From assembly GCA_014873095.1 (NCBI GenBank), contig CP050848.1:4151850-4215849 (forward strand): a DNA stretch of 64,000 bases, given 5' to 3'. The position numbers were made by a program, and so were the translations under genes. The stretch is from Planctomycetales bacterium ZRK34. Lineage in GTDB: Bacteria > Planctomycetota > Phycisphaerae > Phycisphaerales > Zrk34. The notes under the pieces were generated by a model. It was not told where the DNA came from. It ran no database searches and saw nothing but the letters and a program-made list of their open reading frames with translations. Below, piece after piece: positions 17,310-49,618 of this stretch (position 1 is its first letter; every line of letters begins with the position of its first letter).

Positions 17310-18154
17310 GCGGTTTCCTGCTGCTCGGGCAGGCGGTTCAATGCGAGGCCGGGTTGGATCAGCAGTTGGTAGACGGCGGCTCCGCCCAGTGCGCCGCCGA
17401 TGGGTGCGAGGATGTAGACGGTGAAGAATCCGCCGCGCGGGCCGGGGATGGCGACCTCGTCCCAGCCGGCAAACCATGCGAACAGGCGCGGCCCGAAGTC
17501 GCGGGCGGGGTTCAGACCGGCTTGCGTCAGCGGGGCGATCACCGAGATGATCACCGCCACCGCCAGGCCGATCATCACCGGCAGCAGGCGGTTGCCGGGG
17601 TTGTTGTGGTTGTGGGGATCGGTCACGGCAAAAACGAAAAATACGAGAAAAGCAGTTCCGATGGCTTCGCCGAGCATGGCCTGCCACGTGCTGACGCTGT
17701 GGGGCGACCAGTGCATGGCCTCGGCGACGGCGGGATTGGGGAAGTACTCACCGTAAACCATGGCGGACAGTTCGCTGCCGGGCTGGCCGCGCACAAGTTG
17801 ATGGGTGGCTTCGAAGTCGGCGATGACACCGCAGAAAAGACCGTACAGCACGGCGGCAGCGGCGAAGGCGCCGACGAGTTGCGCGAAGATGTACCACGGC
17901 GCCTGCGCGATCGGAAACTTGCGGAAGGCGACAAAGGCGAGAGTGACCGCGGGATTGATGTGGGCCCCGGACAGGGCGCTGGTGGCGTAGATGGCCAGGG
18001 CGATGGCGACGGCCCAGACGACGCCGACCTGCCAGATGCCGACCTGCGCCCCGGCGAGCACCGCTGCGTGTACGGACCCGACACCGAAGAACACGAGTAT
18101 GAACGTGCCGATGATTTCCGCCAGACATGCGTAAAGCATGGGGCGGCGGATCAT
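17306..18154 (-). CDS. MIP family aquaporin/glycerol facilitator
   Basis: This is a 282-aa membrane channel, started at the ATG complementary to 18152-18154; further upstream lies inside the regulator gene. Six helices and two half-helices are recognisable. The first NPA box is SGAHINPAVTLAF and the second is QAGLNPARDFGPRLFAW; an Asp right after NPAR is typical of glycerol facilitators rather than strict water channels. AEIIGTFILVFFGVGSV is the family's first helix. A longer extracellular loop between helices 3 and 4 (about residues 100-150) is present. The ATG overlaps the stop of the PadR-type regulator, so the two are one operon. Its stop overlaps the convergent giant gene's stop. Confidence 0.92.
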   Translation of the reverse strand: MIRRPMLYACLAEIIGTFILVFFGVGSVHAAVLAGAQVGIWQVGVVWAVAIALAIYATSALSGAHINPAVTLAFVAFRKFPIAQAPWYIFAQLVGAFAAAAVLYGLFCGVIADFEATHQLVRGQPGSELSAMVYGEYFPNPAVAEAMHWSPHSVSTWQAMLGEAIGTAFLVFFVFAVTDPHNHNNPGNRLLPVMIGLAVAVIISVIAPLTQAGLNPARDFGPRLFAWFAGWDEVAIPGPRGGFFTVYILAPIGGALGGAAVYQLLIQPGLALNRLPEQQETA

Positions 18155-43776: not shown

Positions 43777-44487
43777 TCAATACCAGTACGACACCGTCGC
43801 ATAGGTGAAACGGTGAGCCAGGTCATGGCCTTCGATCCATTGGACGCTGCCGTCGAGCATGGCGTGATGCGAACCGAGCACCTCGTCGCCGTCGACATAC
43901 AGGTGATTGGCGCCCCAGCGGATTGACGATTTGCCTGTGACGAAGCTGCCGACGGGGTATTGCCGATTCAGGTCGGTCCATATCCACGGCACGACCGGTC
44001 GATCCGACAGTCGCAGTGCGAACACGGGATTGGGTGTGTCGGGCGCGACCTGGTTTTTGATGGAGGCGTTCAGCTTTGGCCGGCCGGCAAAACCGAAGTA
44101 CCCGATGACGACGTTGCCGTTGTAGAGATCGATCCAGAACTCGTCGGCGTTCCATGTGTCGTTGGTGGGGGAGTAGAACGATTCACGGTGGAGGCCGAAG
44201 CTTTCGCCGAACCAGTCGCGTTTGGATGGCTTTACGAAATACGGTCGCCCTTCGCCGCCGTCGACCTCGTTGATTTCGATCGTGCCCATGTTGGGGATAT
44301 TGCCGAACAGATCGGTCGCCGCTGTGAACGAAGCCGTTGTGAGCATGCGCACCTGGACGCCGCATTTGGTCTCTTTGGCGATCTGCACCGATCGACGAAT
44401 CGACGGGATGAGTATCGCCACCAACGCAACAATGATTGAAACGACCACGATTAATTCGACGAGCGTAAAACCCGGTCGATGACGCAT
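43777..44487 (-). CDS. Prepilin-type exported protein (type II secretion/pseudopilin-like)
   Basis: The product is 236 aa from the ATG complementary to 44485-44487, preceded by AGGA. RHRPGFTLVELIVVVSIIVA is a classic prepilin leader: cleavage after Gly, N-methyl-Phe, Glu at +5, hydrophobic helix. The body contains DEFWIDLYNGNVVIGYFGFA and a tail with HHAMLDGSVQWIEGHDLAHR; a HxxxxDGSVQW motif is usual in planctomycete prepilin-like proteins (the H-x9-DG type). Many such proteins occur per genome and are probably secreted or part of surface fibres. It lies between the sulfatase and DUF4159 genes in the sigma-led run. Confidence 0.88.
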   Translation of the reverse strand: MRHRPGFTLVELIVVVSIIVALVAILIPSIRRSVQIAKETKCGVQVRMLTTASFTAATDLFGNIPNMGTIEINEVDGGEGRPYFVKPSKRDWFGESFGLHRESFYSPTNDTWNADEFWIDLYNGNVVIGYFGFAGRPKLNASIKNQVAPDTPNPVFALRLSDRPVVPWIWTDLNRQYPVGSFVTGKSSIRWGANHLYVDGDEVLGSHHAMLDGSVQWIEGHDLAHRFTYATVSYWY

Positions 44488-44767
44488 GGCGATGAGTCCT
44501 TGTGCATGAATGAACAGAGTGAACAGACATCGCTTGAATCCAATGGGTCGTTCGCCGGTTACAGCGAACGGCCACATGCAGGCGGGAAGGCGGGCCCGTG
44601 CATCAAGGCGCGAGCTTGTGGGACGGATCGTTGCTCGGGTTCATCGCGTGCGGGGCCTGCAACCGGTTTGCGTACGATGATCGCTGGATGCACCACATGC
44701 GTCGGAGCATCTTGCACCTGAGTTCCTGTGATTGCGAAGTTGTCGAGAACGCGGTCCGGCTGGTGGC

Positions 44768-46249
44768 TCAGTAATCCTCGCCGTTCAGGCTGTTGACGAC
44801 TGAGGCCCGCCACTGCTCGAAAGCCGCTTCCATGGTTTTGACACGATCGGGATGATCCGCAGCCAGGTCGTGCTCTTCCAACGGGTCTTCAGCCAGGTTG
44901 TACAGTTCGACCGTGATGGTCTTGGCGCGGCGTGCCTTGTTTCGATACAGCTTCCAGGGCCAGTCGGTCCAGGCGCCGGTTCCACCACGTTTGCCGGCGA
45001 ACAGGTCGGCAGGATATTGGCCGTGTTTGCCGGCGTTTTTCCACACTTCCCGTAATTTCTGGAAGGACTTGTCGTCGATGTCATCGGCGTCGCGCCCCTG
45101 ATCCTGACCGCGCTTGAGTGTGGTCAGAACCTCCTGGCTGTTCATCCGATGCCCGGGCGTGCCGTAGACCCAGAAACCCATGGGTTGCGGGCGAGCGGAC
45201 ATGCTTCCTTCAAGGACGGGGATCAGACTCATGCCGTCCATCGGGCGCGTGTGCTGCGACTTGAGGCCGGCGATTTCGAGAAACGTCGGATAGAAGTCGA
45301 GCGTGCTACACGGCACATCGATGACGCGATGCCCGGGATAACGTGCGGGCCATTCGAGCAGGCCGGGCACACGGAGCCCGCCTTCGTAGAGAGAGCCTTT
45401 TTTGCCGCGGCCGCCGGTGGACTTCTTTTCCGTGCCGCCGTTGTCGCTGATGTACCAGAGGATCGTGTTGTCACGGATGCCCATCTCGCGGATCGAATCG
45501 CGCAGTTTGCCGAACGCATGATCCATGCCGGTGATTTCACACAGCCAGCCGATGTTGCCGCCTTTGTCCTTGGGCGGTTCATTCGGATAGAGCGCACGCA
45601 GTTCATCGGTGCCCTGATAAGGCGAGTGGGGCGAGCCGAACCAGATGAAACACATGAACGGTTTGTCGGTTTGGGACTGGCGTTTTATGAAGTCGATCGC
45701 CGCGTCGACGGTGGCCATCGAGCCTTCGCCCTGGGTCTGGACGACGGTTCCGTTGTGGCTGAACAGCGGATCGTTTTCGTAGAAGTTTGGAGAGGAATAC
45801 CACTCGTCAAAACCGAAAGCCGAGGGGTTGGTATTGTCACCTTTGAAGACGGAGCCGACGTGCCACTTGCCGAAGTGGGAGGTCACGTAACCGGCCCGCT
45901 TCATTTCCTGTGCGATGCTGATTTCCTTGGGGTTGATCGGCAGCCCCGGAACGAAAATCCCGTAGCGGTTGGGATGTCTGCCGGTGAGGATGCTGCCGCG
46001 CGTGGGCGAGCAACTCGGCGCCGCCGAATAGAAATGATCGAACCGGATCGCTTCGGCGGCCATGCGATCGAAGTTGGGGGTCTTGAGCCTGGGGTGGCCG
46101 TAGTACCCCATGTCGCCCCAGCCCTGATCGTCGGCCATGACCAGGACGATGTTTGGCAACCGCCTGGCGGGCTCGGCGCTCTGGGCCGAACGCCAGGTAA
46201 ACGGTACAAGCACGACGCCCAGCAGGAATATCGTCAATAGCTGTTTCAC
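44768..46249 (-). CDS. Secreted formylglycine-dependent sulfatase
   Basis: The product is 493 aa from a GTG complementary to 46247-46249, so that a signal peptide (QLLTIFLLGVVLVPFTW) is first; an ATG 14 codons earlier is the alternative. VMADDQGWGDMGYYG gives the two metal-binding Asp, and SAAPSCSPTRGSILTGRHPN is the C-x-P-x-R motif whose Cys (residue 80) is oxidised to formylglycine. HFGKWHVG and WYISDNGGTEKK (D-N for Ca2+) are further active-site blocks. It removes sulfate from a polysaccharide or glycosaminoglycan. The gene follows the FecR-LamG gene, so it may be part of an ECF-controlled sulfated-glycan response. A formylglycine-generating enzyme must be encoded elsewhere. Confidence 0.93.
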   Translation of the reverse strand: MKQLLTIFLLGVVLVPFTWRSAQSAEPARRLPNIVLVMADDQGWGDMGYYGHPRLKTPNFDRMAAEAIRFDHFYSAAPSCSPTRGSILTGRHPNRYGIFVPGLPINPKEISIAQEMKRAGYVTSHFGKWHVGSVFKGDNTNPSAFGFDEWYSSPNFYENDPLFSHNGTVVQTQGEGSMATVDAAIDFIKRQSQTDKPFMCFIWFGSPHSPYQGTDELRALYPNEPPKDKGGNIGWLCEITGMDHAFGKLRDSIREMGIRDNTILWYISDNGGTEKKSTGGRGKKGSLYEGGLRVPGLLEWPARYPGHRVIDVPCSTLDFYPTFLEIAGLKSQHTRPMDGMSLIPVLEGSMSARPQPMGFWVYGTPGHRMNSQEVLTTLKRGQDQGRDADDIDDKSFQKLREVWKNAGKHGQYPADLFAGKRGGTGAWTDWPWKLYRNKARRAKTITVELYNLAEDPLEEHDLAADHPDRVKTMEAAFEQWRASVVNSLNGEDY

Positions 46250-46407
46250 AGATACATCTCGCTTTGTTGCTTGAAGGGGGAACGCAACCACGCATCGGCG
46301 GCCGCTTGACCAGTTGTGCAGACGTTTAAAACTCGAAATCTGATGGGACTGTTCCTTTGCTGTGGCCGATGCATTCGGCCGGTCCGGTCAGTGGGCATTT
46401 CATCGGA

Positions 46408-47874
46408 TCATGGCGACCGCGTCGCGCCCTGGATCAAGACGCCGATCTGTGATTCGGTCAGCGCGGTGTCGAAGACGTACAACTCGTCGATTTCACCAGC
46501 GAATGAGCTGTTGCTCGTTTCGTCGATGTGCTGGCCGATGACGATCGGGCGGGATGCCGGATCAGACACGAGCGTGTTCAACCTCGGGGCCATCTTCTCT
46601 TCGACGAGAGCGCCGTCGATGAATATCTGGGTGTTCTTATCGCGGACGACGACGGCAAGGTGGTGCCATCGACCGTCGGCGAGATCCTGCCCGCCGCGGA
46701 TGTCGCTGCCCACCTGCACGCTGCCCTTGGCGTTGTTGATCAGCAGCGAGACCTGCCATGCATGAGTCGCCGACATCTTGCCCCACCCGATCAGCGGCAT
46801 CTTGGCCTTGATGCTGTCTGCCACAGGGTCGATACGAACCCAGCACGCCACGCTGCGATCCCGAGCGCCTTCGACGCCGGGAACGAGGGTTCTGAGCGCA
46901 TCGCGGTTTCCGTTAAATCTCAACGCATCGCCGAAGCGACCGGCCACGCGCTGCGGATCGCCCTGAAATTCGATGGAAGCGGTCGAAGCATTAAACCTGC
47001 CGCGCTTGCGATCGAAAGGAAGGTACAGCAGGATGCTCTCGGCAAGAGCGGGGTTGACCCCGGTTTCAACCACGTCGGCCATGACGCCGGCGGCGCTGAT
47101 CGCCACGGATCGTCCAGCAAGCAAACGCTGACCTCGTCCCTGAGGGTTGAACACTTCGACCTCGCCCTCATCCACGAAGACCTCCGCCAACCCGTCAACA
47201 CCCACGGAAATGTGAAACACGGTGCCAAGGTCGACCACCCGCACGCCGTTGGGCAGATGGACGGTGAATCCCTTCAAGCCCGGCGGGCATCGGAATCGGG
47301 CTGAGCCCAACTCAAGCGATGCGTTCATCGGATTTCGCATGTGCATCCGCGTTGGGCCGTCCAGTTCGATGCCCACACGGTTGGTCAGCAGGATCTCCGC
47401 GCGCCCGCCGGCCAGTTCGTAACGCCCGGCGGGGTACTCGCCGCCTGCGTAGGTGAAGCTGTCGTCAACGATCAGTTCGCCGGTGGATTCGATAATCGTC
47501 GCGACCGGTGATGTTGATCGTGGCGAGATGTTCTGCTCCGACTGCGAGATGATCAGAAAATAGATCGCGACCGCCGTCGCCAGGATCGCCACGGCCGCGG
47601 CGATGCGCCAGGCCGCAGGCAATCGAAGCACACGAGTCGGCGCAGTGGCATCACGGCTGACGGACTTCGCCGATGATTCGTCGACGACCGGTTCCTTGAA
47701 GTCATCCGAGGTAAACGCCAGTTGATCGACCAGGCTCGATTGAAAACTCGCCAGCGCGATAAATCGCCGTGTATTTTCATGGTCGGCTTTCAACCACGCT
47801 GAAAGCGCCGCGGCATCGGCATCGCTGATTGAACCGTCGAAATAGGCTTCGATGAGCCGGTCGCACTCGTTCAT
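46408..47874 (-). CDS. FecR-type anti-sigma protein with C-terminal LamG domain
   Basis: This 488-aa protein begins with a cytoplasmic anti-sigma-like segment (ECDRLIEAYFDGSISDADAA), then one transmembrane helix (WRIAAAVAILATAVAIYFLI, about 90-110). The periplasmic FecR domain follows (ATIIESTGELIVDDSFTYAG, PNGVRVVDLGTVFHISVG and FVDEGEVEVFNPQG). Its last 200 residues are a concanavalin-like LamG domain (ADGRWHHLAVVVRDKNTQIF and AGEIDELYVFDTALTESQIG), a carbohydrate- or protein-binding fold. Replacing a TonB receptor by a fused LamG sensor is typical of planctomycetes. The start overlaps the sigma gene stop (ATGA), so the pair are coupled and FecR most likely restrains the sigma factor. Confidence 0.88.
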   Translation of the reverse strand: MNECDRLIEAYFDGSISDADAAALSAWLKADHENTRRFIALASFQSSLVDQLAFTSDDFKEPVVDESSAKSVSRDATAPTRVLRLPAAWRIAAAVAILATAVAIYFLIISQSEQNISPRSTSPVATIIESTGELIVDDSFTYAGGEYPAGRYELAGGRAEILLTNRVGIELDGPTRMHMRNPMNASLELGSARFRCPPGLKGFTVHLPNGVRVVDLGTVFHISVGVDGLAEVFVDEGEVEVFNPQGRGQRLLAGRSVAISAAGVMADVVETGVNPALAESILLYLPFDRKRGRFNASTASIEFQGDPQRVAGRFGDALRFNGNRDALRTLVPGVEGARDRSVACWVRIDPVADSIKAKMPLIGWGKMSATHAWQVSLLINNAKGSVQVGSDIRGGQDLADGRWHHLAVVVRDKNTQIFIDGALVEEKMAPRLNTLVSDPASRPIVIGQHIDETSNSSFAGEIDELYVFDTALTESQIGVLIQGATRSP

Positions 47875-48407
47875 GGCGCCACCTCATCGATCTGTGTCTT
47901 TTGAGAGATGCATCGAAGCAGTTGCTTCCGCACGCGCGAGATCGTCTTGTCCACGACGTTGGGCGTCGTGGCGAATTTCACCGCGATGTCTTTTGAGCGT
48001 GCCGACTTGTAATACTTCAGGCGAAGCATTTCCTTGCCGCGGTCATTGAGCCCCTCCATGCATTCGACCAGCGCCTCGGCGATCTCCACGTGTTTGTCCG
48101 CAAACTCGGCGGCGGCATCTGAAAGCGAGGCGAGCAGATCAGCATCGAACACCACCCGGCAGCGCTGCTGATCGCGGTACCAGTGAAGTATCTCGTTGCG
48201 TGCGATCCCGATGACCCATGTTGTGAACGTGGATGATTCGGGGTCGTAGCGATCACGGATCTCGAATGCGGTCATCGCCACACGCTGAACCACGTCTTCA
48301 GCTTCATGGAAGCGCGGCAGCGAGGCCATCACGAAAGCGCCCAGGGCTCTTTGCGACCTCGCCCAGTTCGCGGCAAATTCCCGGTCTGTTAAGGTTCTGC
48401 GTTCCAT
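47871..48407 (-). CDS. ECF-type RNA polymerase sigma factor (planctomycete family)
   Basis: The product is 178 aa. Region 2 is FHEAEDVVQRVAMTAFEIRD with STFTTWVIGIARNEILHWYRD (the W-x-x-x-I-A-R-N signature of region 2.4 to 3), and region 4 is LNDRGKEMLRLKYYKSARSK through VVDKTISRVRKQLLRCI. It is of the group linked to FecR-like proteins in Planctomycetota, Verrucomicrobia and Lentisphaerae. It is translationally coupled to the FecR-LamG gene. Its upstream region and first codons recur in inverted orientation at 48654-48794, upstream of the PEP-CTERM gene. The target genes cannot be read from sequence but probably include its own operon. Confidence 0.92.
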   Translation of the reverse strand: MERRTLTDREFAANWARSQRALGAFVMASLPRFHEAEDVVQRVAMTAFEIRDRYDPESSTFTTWVIGIARNEILHWYRDQQRCRVVFDADLLASLSDAAAEFADKHVEIAEALVECMEGLNDRGKEMLRLKYYKSARSKDIAVKFATTPNVVDKTISRVRKQLLRCISQKTQIDEVAP

Positions 48408-48431
48408 GCGGTGTTGTACCTGCTGGTTGCT

Positions 48432-48485
48432 TCAAGCGTTGATTCCCGAAGTGGCGCAATTCTGACGCGTTCGGCACAAAAAAAA
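48432..48485 (-). promoter_or_regulatory. Conserved element, copy 1, upstream of the sigma factor gene
   Basis: Read on the minus strand from 48485, a run of T is followed by GCCGAACGCGTCAGAATTGC and on to TTGA, ending 24 bases before the sigma ATG. The 44-base core differs from copy 2 (48654-48704, plus strand) at five positions only. It is the likely promoter or operator of the sigma operon; which bases are contacted is unknown. Confidence 0.65.
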
Positions 48486-48653
48486 CAACTCACGGCATGC
48501 CCGTAAGCGCCGGCTGGTCATGGCCATCACAGTATCCTCACCACGCACCTGTACGACAATTACATCATGACGCCTCGGCCCCAAGCGCCGCCTGAGTCCG
48601 TCGGGTTCGACATGCGTACCGAAATGCGGTTGGCGAGTATCGCGCCAGTGAAA

Positions 48654-48704
48654 TTTTTTTGCCGAGCGGGTCAGAATTGCGCCGCTTCGGGAATGAACGA
48701 TTGA
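48654..48704 (+). promoter_or_regulatory. Conserved element, copy 2, upstream of the PEP-CTERM gene
   Basis: The same element as copy 1 with 39 of 44 core bases identical, in the opposite genomic orientation: a T-run (48654-48660), GCCGAGCGGGTCAGAATTGC, CTTCGGGAAT and TTGA. An ATG lies 24 bases after it, as in copy 1, and this opens the short sigma-like frame at 48729. It could drive the PEP-CTERM gene by the same sigma factor. Confidence 0.65.
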
Positions 48705-48728
48705 GGAGCCCTATAGGCAGATCGCCCG

Positions 48729-48794
48729 ATGGAACGTAAAGCCTTAACCGGCAGTGAGTTTTCCGCGAGTTGGGCGTGCTCGCATAAAGCCTGA
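48729..48794 (+). pseudogene. Duplicate of the sigma factor N-terminus, 21 codons then stop
   Basis: The frame MERKALTGSEFSASWACSHK plus one Ala matches the sigma factor's first 21 residues (MERRTLTDREFAANWARSQR, then A) at 11 of 21 positions, and at 48 of 63 bases. It then ends with TGA and TAG. Beyond this no sigma sequence remains, and the PEP-CTERM gene begins 26 bases later. Either a second sigma gene was deleted, or the segment survives as a 21-residue leader peptide in the PEP-CTERM transcript. Confidence 0.6.
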
Positions 48795-48820
48795 TAGCCC
48801 CATTTTGGAGGAACTTGTCG

Positions 48821-49618
48821 ATGAAATTCCAACACACACTTCTGATGGCTGCGGCTGTTGCCCTGATTGGCGGTTCGGTTGTGCAGGCGGCATTGATCGT
48901 CGATTTCGGCGGCACCGAATATGTCTCCGCAAACCAGGTCATGCAGGCCGGCGGATTCGACATCAACGGCGATCCGCTGGCGTTGTACCCGACGACCGAC
49001 TACAACACCGCGGCCACCAGCGCCGTGTTTCACGGACAGCAGGAAGCGTCCGCCGGCAACCAGAATCTCGTCGGCCAGGACGGCGGCGGCGATCGCCTGA
49101 TCTATAAGTGTGACAACGCCGCCTCGCTCACCGCGTTGACGCTGTGGACCTCGGACAACTTCCTGGGCGCCGCGGCGGGCGGGCCCGTCGATCTGCTCTC
49201 AGCATCTGACACCGTGTCGTTCAATGTCGTCACCTATGCCCAGATCAACACCGTGCGACTGGTCGTTCGGATTGCTGATGATTACTACATATCATCGCAG
49301 GCGTTCACAGCCGGGACCGGAACCATGGACGTCGATCCCACCGCCCTGAGTTGGTTCACGTATGATCCGGCCGCCGCGCTGGTCTATTCCAGTGGGAGCG
49401 CGGCGAGTATTGTTTCCGGCGGGGTGATCTCCGGCGTCACTGAAGTCGGCTTCTACGTTGCCCGCACGGATGCCGACGGCACCAGCGGAAACGCCCTGCG
49501 GCTGAACTCCTTCGAAGTGGACGCGACGCCGTCGTCGGTTGTGATCCCCGAGCCTGCCACGCTGGCCATGTTCTGCCTGGGGGCCATCGGCCTGGGCACT
49601 CGTCGCAAGAAACTGTGA
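48821..49618 (+). CDS. PEP-CTERM exported protein
   Basis: This is a 265-aa protein with GGAGG (48807-48811) ahead of ATG 48821. It has a signal peptide (LLMAAAVALIGGSVVQA), a beta-rich body (LTALTLWTSDNFLGAAAGGP, INTVRLVVRIADDYYISSQA) and the standard tail VIPEPATLAMFCLGAIGLGT then RRKKL. Such proteins are exported, processed by an exosortase and often linked to extracellular polymer. The body has no recognised family; many planctomycete paralogues share its form. The upstream region carries the duplicated sigma promoter and N-terminus, suggesting co-regulation with the sigma/FecR-LamG system. Confidence 0.86.
   Translation: MKFQHTLLMAAAVALIGGSVVQAALIVDFGGTEYVSANQVMQAGGFDINGDPLALYPTTDYNTAATSAVFHGQQEASAGNQNLVGQDGGGDRLIYKCDNAASLTALTLWTSDNFLGAAAGGPVDLLSASDTVSFNVVTYAQINTVRLVVRIADDYYISSQAFTAGTGTMDVDPTALSWFTYDPAAALVYSSGSAASIVSGGVISGVTEVGFYVARTDADGTSGNALRLNSFEVDATPSSVVIPEPATLAMFCLGAIGLGTRRKKL

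Follow-up and report, generated by a model that had tools for sequence, protein, structure and literature searches.

An inverted duplicate of an ECF sigma-factor gene 5′ end, with its predicted promoter, upstream of a PEP-CTERM gene in Planctomycetales bacterium ZRK34

Planctomycetes and their relatives can encode from dozens to more than 100 ECF sigma factors per organism. To our knowledge, almost no targets of planctomycete ECF sigma factors have been identified, and we know of no description of how the PEP-CTERM genes of these bacteria are controlled. The promoters of ECF sigma factors are typically marked by CGT in the -10 region and AAC in the -35 region, and these sigma factors are commonly autoregulated, although those of the Fec type usually are not (PMC8103513). 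Proteobacterial PEP-CTERM genes are under sigma-54/PrsK/PrsR control, exerted via a sigma-54 element (PMC1569441, PMC9850573), and include an RpoN-dependent case (PMC9850573). A search of the open-access literature yielded this proteobacterial route alone for the control of PEP-CTERM genes, and neither an ECF link for them nor a promoter motif for the gvs1 sigma factor family; since subscription journals were outside its scope, this absence is weak evidence.

Here we analyse a 64-kb stretch of the ZRK34 genome (the window), in which a gvs1 sigma gene and a PEP-CTERM gene are transcribed divergently. The sequence-only reading of this DNA held that the promoter and first codons of the sigma gene had been duplicated in inverted orientation, placing the exported PEP-CTERM protein under the sigma factor's own promoter.

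Gene content and the inverted repeat

The sigma factor scores 128.2 bits against NCBIfam TIGR02989 (cut-off 124.55), and PF04542 and PF08281, corresponding to sigma regions 2 and 4, are its only domains. Its stop codon is overlapped by 4 nt by the probable anti-sigma gene, the product of which has a membrane helix near residue 90, matches an anti-sigma model at E = 6.7e-5, below the cut-off, and matches PF04773 (FecR) at 18 bits, below the Pfam cut-off of 24, its conserved core being alignable with paralogues. The divergent PEP-CTERM gene has its own ribosome-binding site (GGAGG, 48807-48811) and encodes a protein with the C-terminal PEP motif, helix and basic end of an exosortase substrate (PF07589, 28.1 bits against a cut-off of 20.7; TIGR02595, 25.3 against 16), the signal peptide having been recognised by eye. 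The genome contains two exosortase genes as judged by matches to PF09721.

Table 1. Features of the locus (window coordinates)
Feature	Position	Strand	Description
Pseudopilin-like gene	43777-44577	-	N_methyl; possibly in the sigma operon
Sulfatase gene	44768-46291	-	Possibly in the sigma operon
Probable anti-sigma gene	46408-47874	-	Probably transmembrane: N-terminal part, membrane helix, FecR-like region, C-terminal LamG
ECF sigma factor gene	47871-48407	-	TIGR02989 (gvs1), 178 aa
Copy 1 of inverted repeat	48345-48482	-	T-tract, promoter, leader, sigma codons 1-21
Predicted ECF-type promoter of sigma gene	48457-48487	-	TGTTTTTTTTG-TGCCGAAC-GCGTCAGAATTG, 16.2 bits; -10-like box 48457-48466
Predicted ECF-type promoter before PEP-CTERM gene	48650-48679	+	GAAATTTTTTT-GCCGAGC-GGGTCAGAATTG, 19.4 bits; -10-like box 48670-48679
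Copy 2 of inverted repeat	48654-48791	+	T-tract, promoter, leader, 21-codon sigma remnant
Truncated sigma frame	48729-48797	+	MERKALTGSEFSASWACSHKA, then TGA TAG
PEP-CTERM gene	48821-49618	+	Exported protein, 265 aa, signal-peptide-like N-terminus

The two copies form an ungapped inverted repeat of 138 bp, identical at 104 positions and mismatched at 34 (75.4% identity, no indel). Read in the sense direction, both arms run from a T-tract through GTCAGAATTG and CGCCNCTTCGGGAAT into a decayed leader, an ATG and 21 codons. Their local alignment score is 108, compared with maxima of 39 for window stretches paired at random (about 300 pairs) and of 63 for the complete set of 4,186 pairings among the 5′ regions of 92 sigma genes of the genome, while copy 2 scores at most 29 against those of the 92 sigma genes other than its neighbour. 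These scores identify copy 2 as a duplicate of the 5′ end of the neighbouring sigma gene; the likeness is neither chance nor general family resemblance, and the proposed inverted duplication of promoter and first codons is real. The core was previously described as identical at 39 of 44 bases, a figure that needs correction, since the ranges 48432-48482 and 48654-48704 align without gaps at 45 of 51 positions. The ATG does lie 24 nt beyond this 51-bp stretch in both copies, and 48 of the 63 bases of the first 21 codons are identical as reported, but the residues agree at 12 of 21 positions rather than 11. Copy 1 runs on into the complete sigma gene, whereas in copy 2 the frame stops, as had been read; codon 21 is followed by TGA TAG and, 23 bases later, by the ATG of the PEP-CTERM gene; no trace of sigma sequence was found beyond 48791 on this side. 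A terminator-like hairpin is present directly upstream of the T-tract of each copy, outside the repeat (48488-48508, minus strand; 48629-48649, plus strand). Similar hairpins are fused to a few other sigma promoters (3893728, 2484681 and 719959), and a general coupling of terminator hairpin and T-tract was not detected, there being no enrichment over neighbouring offsets (p = 0.85).

Copy 2 would be an old inverted duplicate, probably the remnant of a second, head-to-head sigma gene reduced to 21 codons. The simplest history is probably that of a head-to-head sigma pair, one member of which lost everything but its promoter and these codons, and the repeat would be equally well accounted for by a direct partial inverted duplication. 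In the related genus G005, one locus (G005:C33:12800-14500, L330) carries two full-length gvs1 sigma genes arranged head-to-head, each an inverted duplicate of the other, with the duplication extending into the following genes, and the three further head-to-head sigma pairs inspected in this genus lack such DNA similarity. Protein and DNA searches of 60 relatives found no orthologous locus. Elsewhere among the relatives, two gvs1 matches interrupted by one in-frame stop (G001:C25:19688-20185 and G008:C217:2220-2723) are possibly decaying sigma genes.

Between the two copies, 4 of 41 positions are mismatched from the T-tract to GGGAAT (the promoter core), 15 of 34 in the remaining 5′ leader and 15 of 63 in codons 1-21. 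The core is the best conserved part (4/41 against 30/97 elsewhere; Fisher p = 0.006, the segment ends having been picked partly post hoc), and for the portion of the promoter window inside the repeat, taken alone, the comparison is 3/26 against 31/112 (p = 0.065), so that the significance of core conservation is modest. The assertion that the noncoding element is better conserved than the coding part is accordingly borne out for the core but not for the rest of the leader. This pattern of mismatches would be expected if both promoters are under selection, the leaders have decayed and the intact sigma gene, at least, is constrained. If the conserved stretch acted instead as RNA or peptide, either as a structured leader or as a 21-codon regulatory leader peptide, this would account for 138 bp without an indel, for a frame that is intact to codon 21 and for the identity of the predicted first transcribed bases, CGCCNCTTCGGGAAT, at 14 of 15 positions. 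However, the leader folds no better than shuffled sequences (z = 0.47), an Rfam search of the leader gave no match, and the 21-codon frame, in which about 10 changes are nonsynonymous (49.7 sites) and 5 synonymous (13.3 sites), does not display clear constraint. We therefore regard such a role as highly improbable.

A promoter motif common to the gvs1 sigma genes

The gvs1 sigma model has 110 matches in the genome, and PEP-CTERM has 70. Unsupervised motif finding in the upstream regions of 92 of its gvs1 sigma genes recovered aaaatTTTTt and, after about 9 bases, TGT.aaatt, in agreement with a two-block model; the class motif thus consists of an A/T tract separated by a short spacer from a TGTnnAAATT-like box. 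Using a scoring model trained without the window locus, with the sigma genes scored by cross-validation, the median score was 13.3 bits for sigma genes, compared with 5.3 for 95 control genes (p = 7.6e-23) and 6.7 for the 69 other PEP-CTERM genes. None of the 95 controls and none of the 69 other PEP-CTERM genes scored as high as either copy, and within the window copy 2 is the best-scoring site and copy 1 the second. A third sigma-type site in the window (17615-17645, minus strand, 15.9 bits) has neither a sigma nor a PEP-CTERM gene behind it. The 1.01 Mb of sequence examined, which includes every main sigma and PEP-CTERM locus along with fifteen stretches of 20 kb, contains 23 sites of at least 18 bits, 18 of which precede sigma genes and one of which is copy 2, while the 300 kb of arbitrarily placed stretches contain none.

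A search of the genome for the element, as had been suggested, gave a divided answer: the exact core, represented by the 25-mer GTCAGAATTGCGCCNCTTCGGGAAT, is confined to the two copies in 5.71 Mb when up to 3 mismatches are allowed, but the class motif recurs before sigma genes. In relatives, the motif is also present upstream of sigma genes of two related genera, G005 (p = 3e-9) and G003 (p = 2e-6, both against shuffles). The prediction that the element would precede many PEP-CTERM or sigma genes holds for the latter but not the former, copy 2 being the only strong match among 70 PEP-CTERM genes. Because the core fits a motif derived independently of this locus and copy 2 is unique in this respect, the best-supported reading places the exported protein under control of the promoter of the sigma factor itself.

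The exact -10 box GTCAGAATTG is common to both copies, and the closest of 80 other sigma promoters agrees with it at 7 of 10 positions. The class -10 is TGT, with C in the first position in about 20% of cases; copy 1 has CGTCAG and copy 2 GGTCAG, both CGT-like as in ECF promoters. On the -35 side, the A/T tract AAAATTTTT stands where AAC is expected, and this departure from the usual ECF box counts against our preferred explanation. Taken together, the class motif and a -10 box private to this pair suggest that both copies are recognised by this sigma factor, and the sigma gene would be autoregulated via the copy 1 promoter. A single motif across about 90 paralogous sigma genes is also what a master regulator would give, and the gvs1 sigma genes might all be controlled by another shared regulator or another sigma factor, in which case the PEP-CTERM gene would be co-regulated with its neighbour and not by it. 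We consider this unlikely, given that autoregulation is common among ECF sigma factors (PMC8103513), that the TGT/CGT box, correctly spaced from the upstream tract, resembles an ECF -10, and that the exact -10 sequence is private to the two copies.

Promoter copy and operon position at PEP-CTERM genes

On the same strand and within 5 kb downstream of a gvs1 sigma gene we located 21 of the 70 PEP-CTERM genes, where 3.1 were expected and the maximum in 300 shifts was 10. Distances of about 1.3-1.7 kb, which correspond to one anti-sigma gene, are the most frequent. In 91 of 92 cases, the gene that overlaps or adjoins the gvs1 sigma gene downstream encodes a membrane helix in its initial portion; the anti-sigma-like proteins examined have a common FecR-like core and varied C-terminal domains. 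A PEP-CTERM gene situated in an apparent sigma operon needs no sigma-type promoter of its own. Since the PEP-CTERM gene of the window is divergent, it lacks this operon link, and copy 2 stands in its place. We rejected the possibility that PEP-CTERM genes as a group are under the class promoter, as the enrichment of sigma-type sites before them is only marginal (p = 0.026) and is explained at least partly by operon position. Genus G005 shows this operon arrangement only weakly (4 cases where 1.6 were expected), so the gene-order rule may hold in some lineages only.

A consensus scan of 48400-48820 found no convincing sigma-70-like promoter, and there is no sigma-54 -24/-12 site with up to 3 mismatches on the plus strand of 48500-48820, which points to copy 2 as the probable origin of PEP-CTERM transcription. 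From copy 2 to the PEP-CTERM ATG, the transcript would have a leader of about 140 nt containing a short frame and two stops, which counts against this explanation, and there may be a promoter nearer the gene. Copy 2 could be a dead relic, its promoter weak or silent, with the PEP-CTERM gene expressed from another promoter within 48690-48820; in favour of this, the repeat runs into 21 sigma codons and then stops, the leader is decayed past the core (15/34 mismatches) and an intact counterpart exists in the head-to-head inverted pair of G005. This is nevertheless improbable in our judgement, because the promoter core is the best-kept part of the repeat, copy 2 outscores copy 1 (19.4 against 16.2 bits) and the consensus scan found no promoter between the copy 2 core and the PEP-CTERM gene.

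Sigma-type sites away from sigma genes were also observed outside the window. The strongest in the 1.01 Mb examined (4930170; L100, about 3623; 22.8 bits) points in the direction opposite to a gvs1 sigma gene, and the gene behind it encodes an exported C-type lectin/PA14 protein ending in VIPLPGAGMMGFAMMLGMASVKRFRRRS (VPLPG, helix, KRFRRRS), an end that looks exosortase-type and has no match among the NCBIfam/Pfam sorting models. A 19.0-bit site at 784141, likewise facing away from a sigma gene, precedes a gene for an exported esterase-like protein. In this region (784060-784206, L102), the sigma gene (22.4 bits) and the divergent esterase-like gene appear to use one and the same palindromic A/T tract as their -35, so that the promoter may be bidirectional. 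Opposite-strand scores upstream of sigma genes are higher where the neighbour is divergent (p = 0.002), a comparison in which the palindromic A/T tract inflates matches, and for the number of opposite-strand sites of at least 14 bits the result is not significant.

The proposed circuit and known systems

We think it likely that copy 2 is a duplicate of the sigma-gene 5′ end that keeps the PEP-CTERM gene under the sigma promoter; with the sigma promoter copied before the divergent gene, both genes are probably switched on together. By analogy with known ECF systems, the LamG/FecR-like protein would release the sigma factor. RNA polymerase carrying the sigma factor would start leftward from the promoter at 48457-48487, expressing the sigma and anti-sigma genes and perhaps those for the sulfatase and pseudopilin, and rightward from that at 48650-48679, expressing the exosortase substrate, which would be sorted by an exosortase, predicted from the two PF09721 genes. 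The duplicated promoter would thereby replace the operon link that is usual for sigma-linked PEP-CTERM genes in this genome. More tentatively, and with somewhat less than even confidence, we envisage the gvs1 sigma/anti-sigma pairs of this lineage as a large array of parallel surface-signalling circuits with exosortase-sorted surface proteins as outputs, usually third in the operon, and with a second promoter copy where this order is broken; under this wider reading the lectin/PA14 protein would be a second example of coupling by promoter copy, one without visible duplication.

The locus provides a testable sigma-target pair, in which two promoter copies differ at known positions, and the genome provides a class promoter together with a gene-order rule (sigma factor, transmembrane anti-sigma, exosortase substrate). 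If this is correct, sequence alone could suffice to match C-terminal sensor domains to the surface proteins under their control.

Among described systems, the locus resembles the autoregulated ECF sigma factors in that its sigma gene overlaps a downstream gene for a transmembrane anti-sigma-like protein, and in having one sigma-type promoter before the sigma gene and a second before a divergent gene for an exported protein. It differs in the origin of the second site, an inverted copy of the sigma 5′ end that retains 21 codons, in that the -35 is an A/T tract and not AAC, and in that there are about 110 paralogues in one genome, most with the class promoter. As in FecI/FecR cell-surface signalling, the sigma gene precedes that for a membrane protein with a FecR-like region, but here the FecR match is below the Pfam cut-off (18 against 24 bits) and the C-terminus is LamG. 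With the sigma-54/PrsK/PrsR system it has in common a cis element upstream of an exosortase-substrate gene, whereas there is no -24/-12 site on the strand of this gene, and the element is ECF-type and found mainly before sigma genes. The circuit is of a known kind, and its unusual part is the duplicated promoter with sigma codons still attached.
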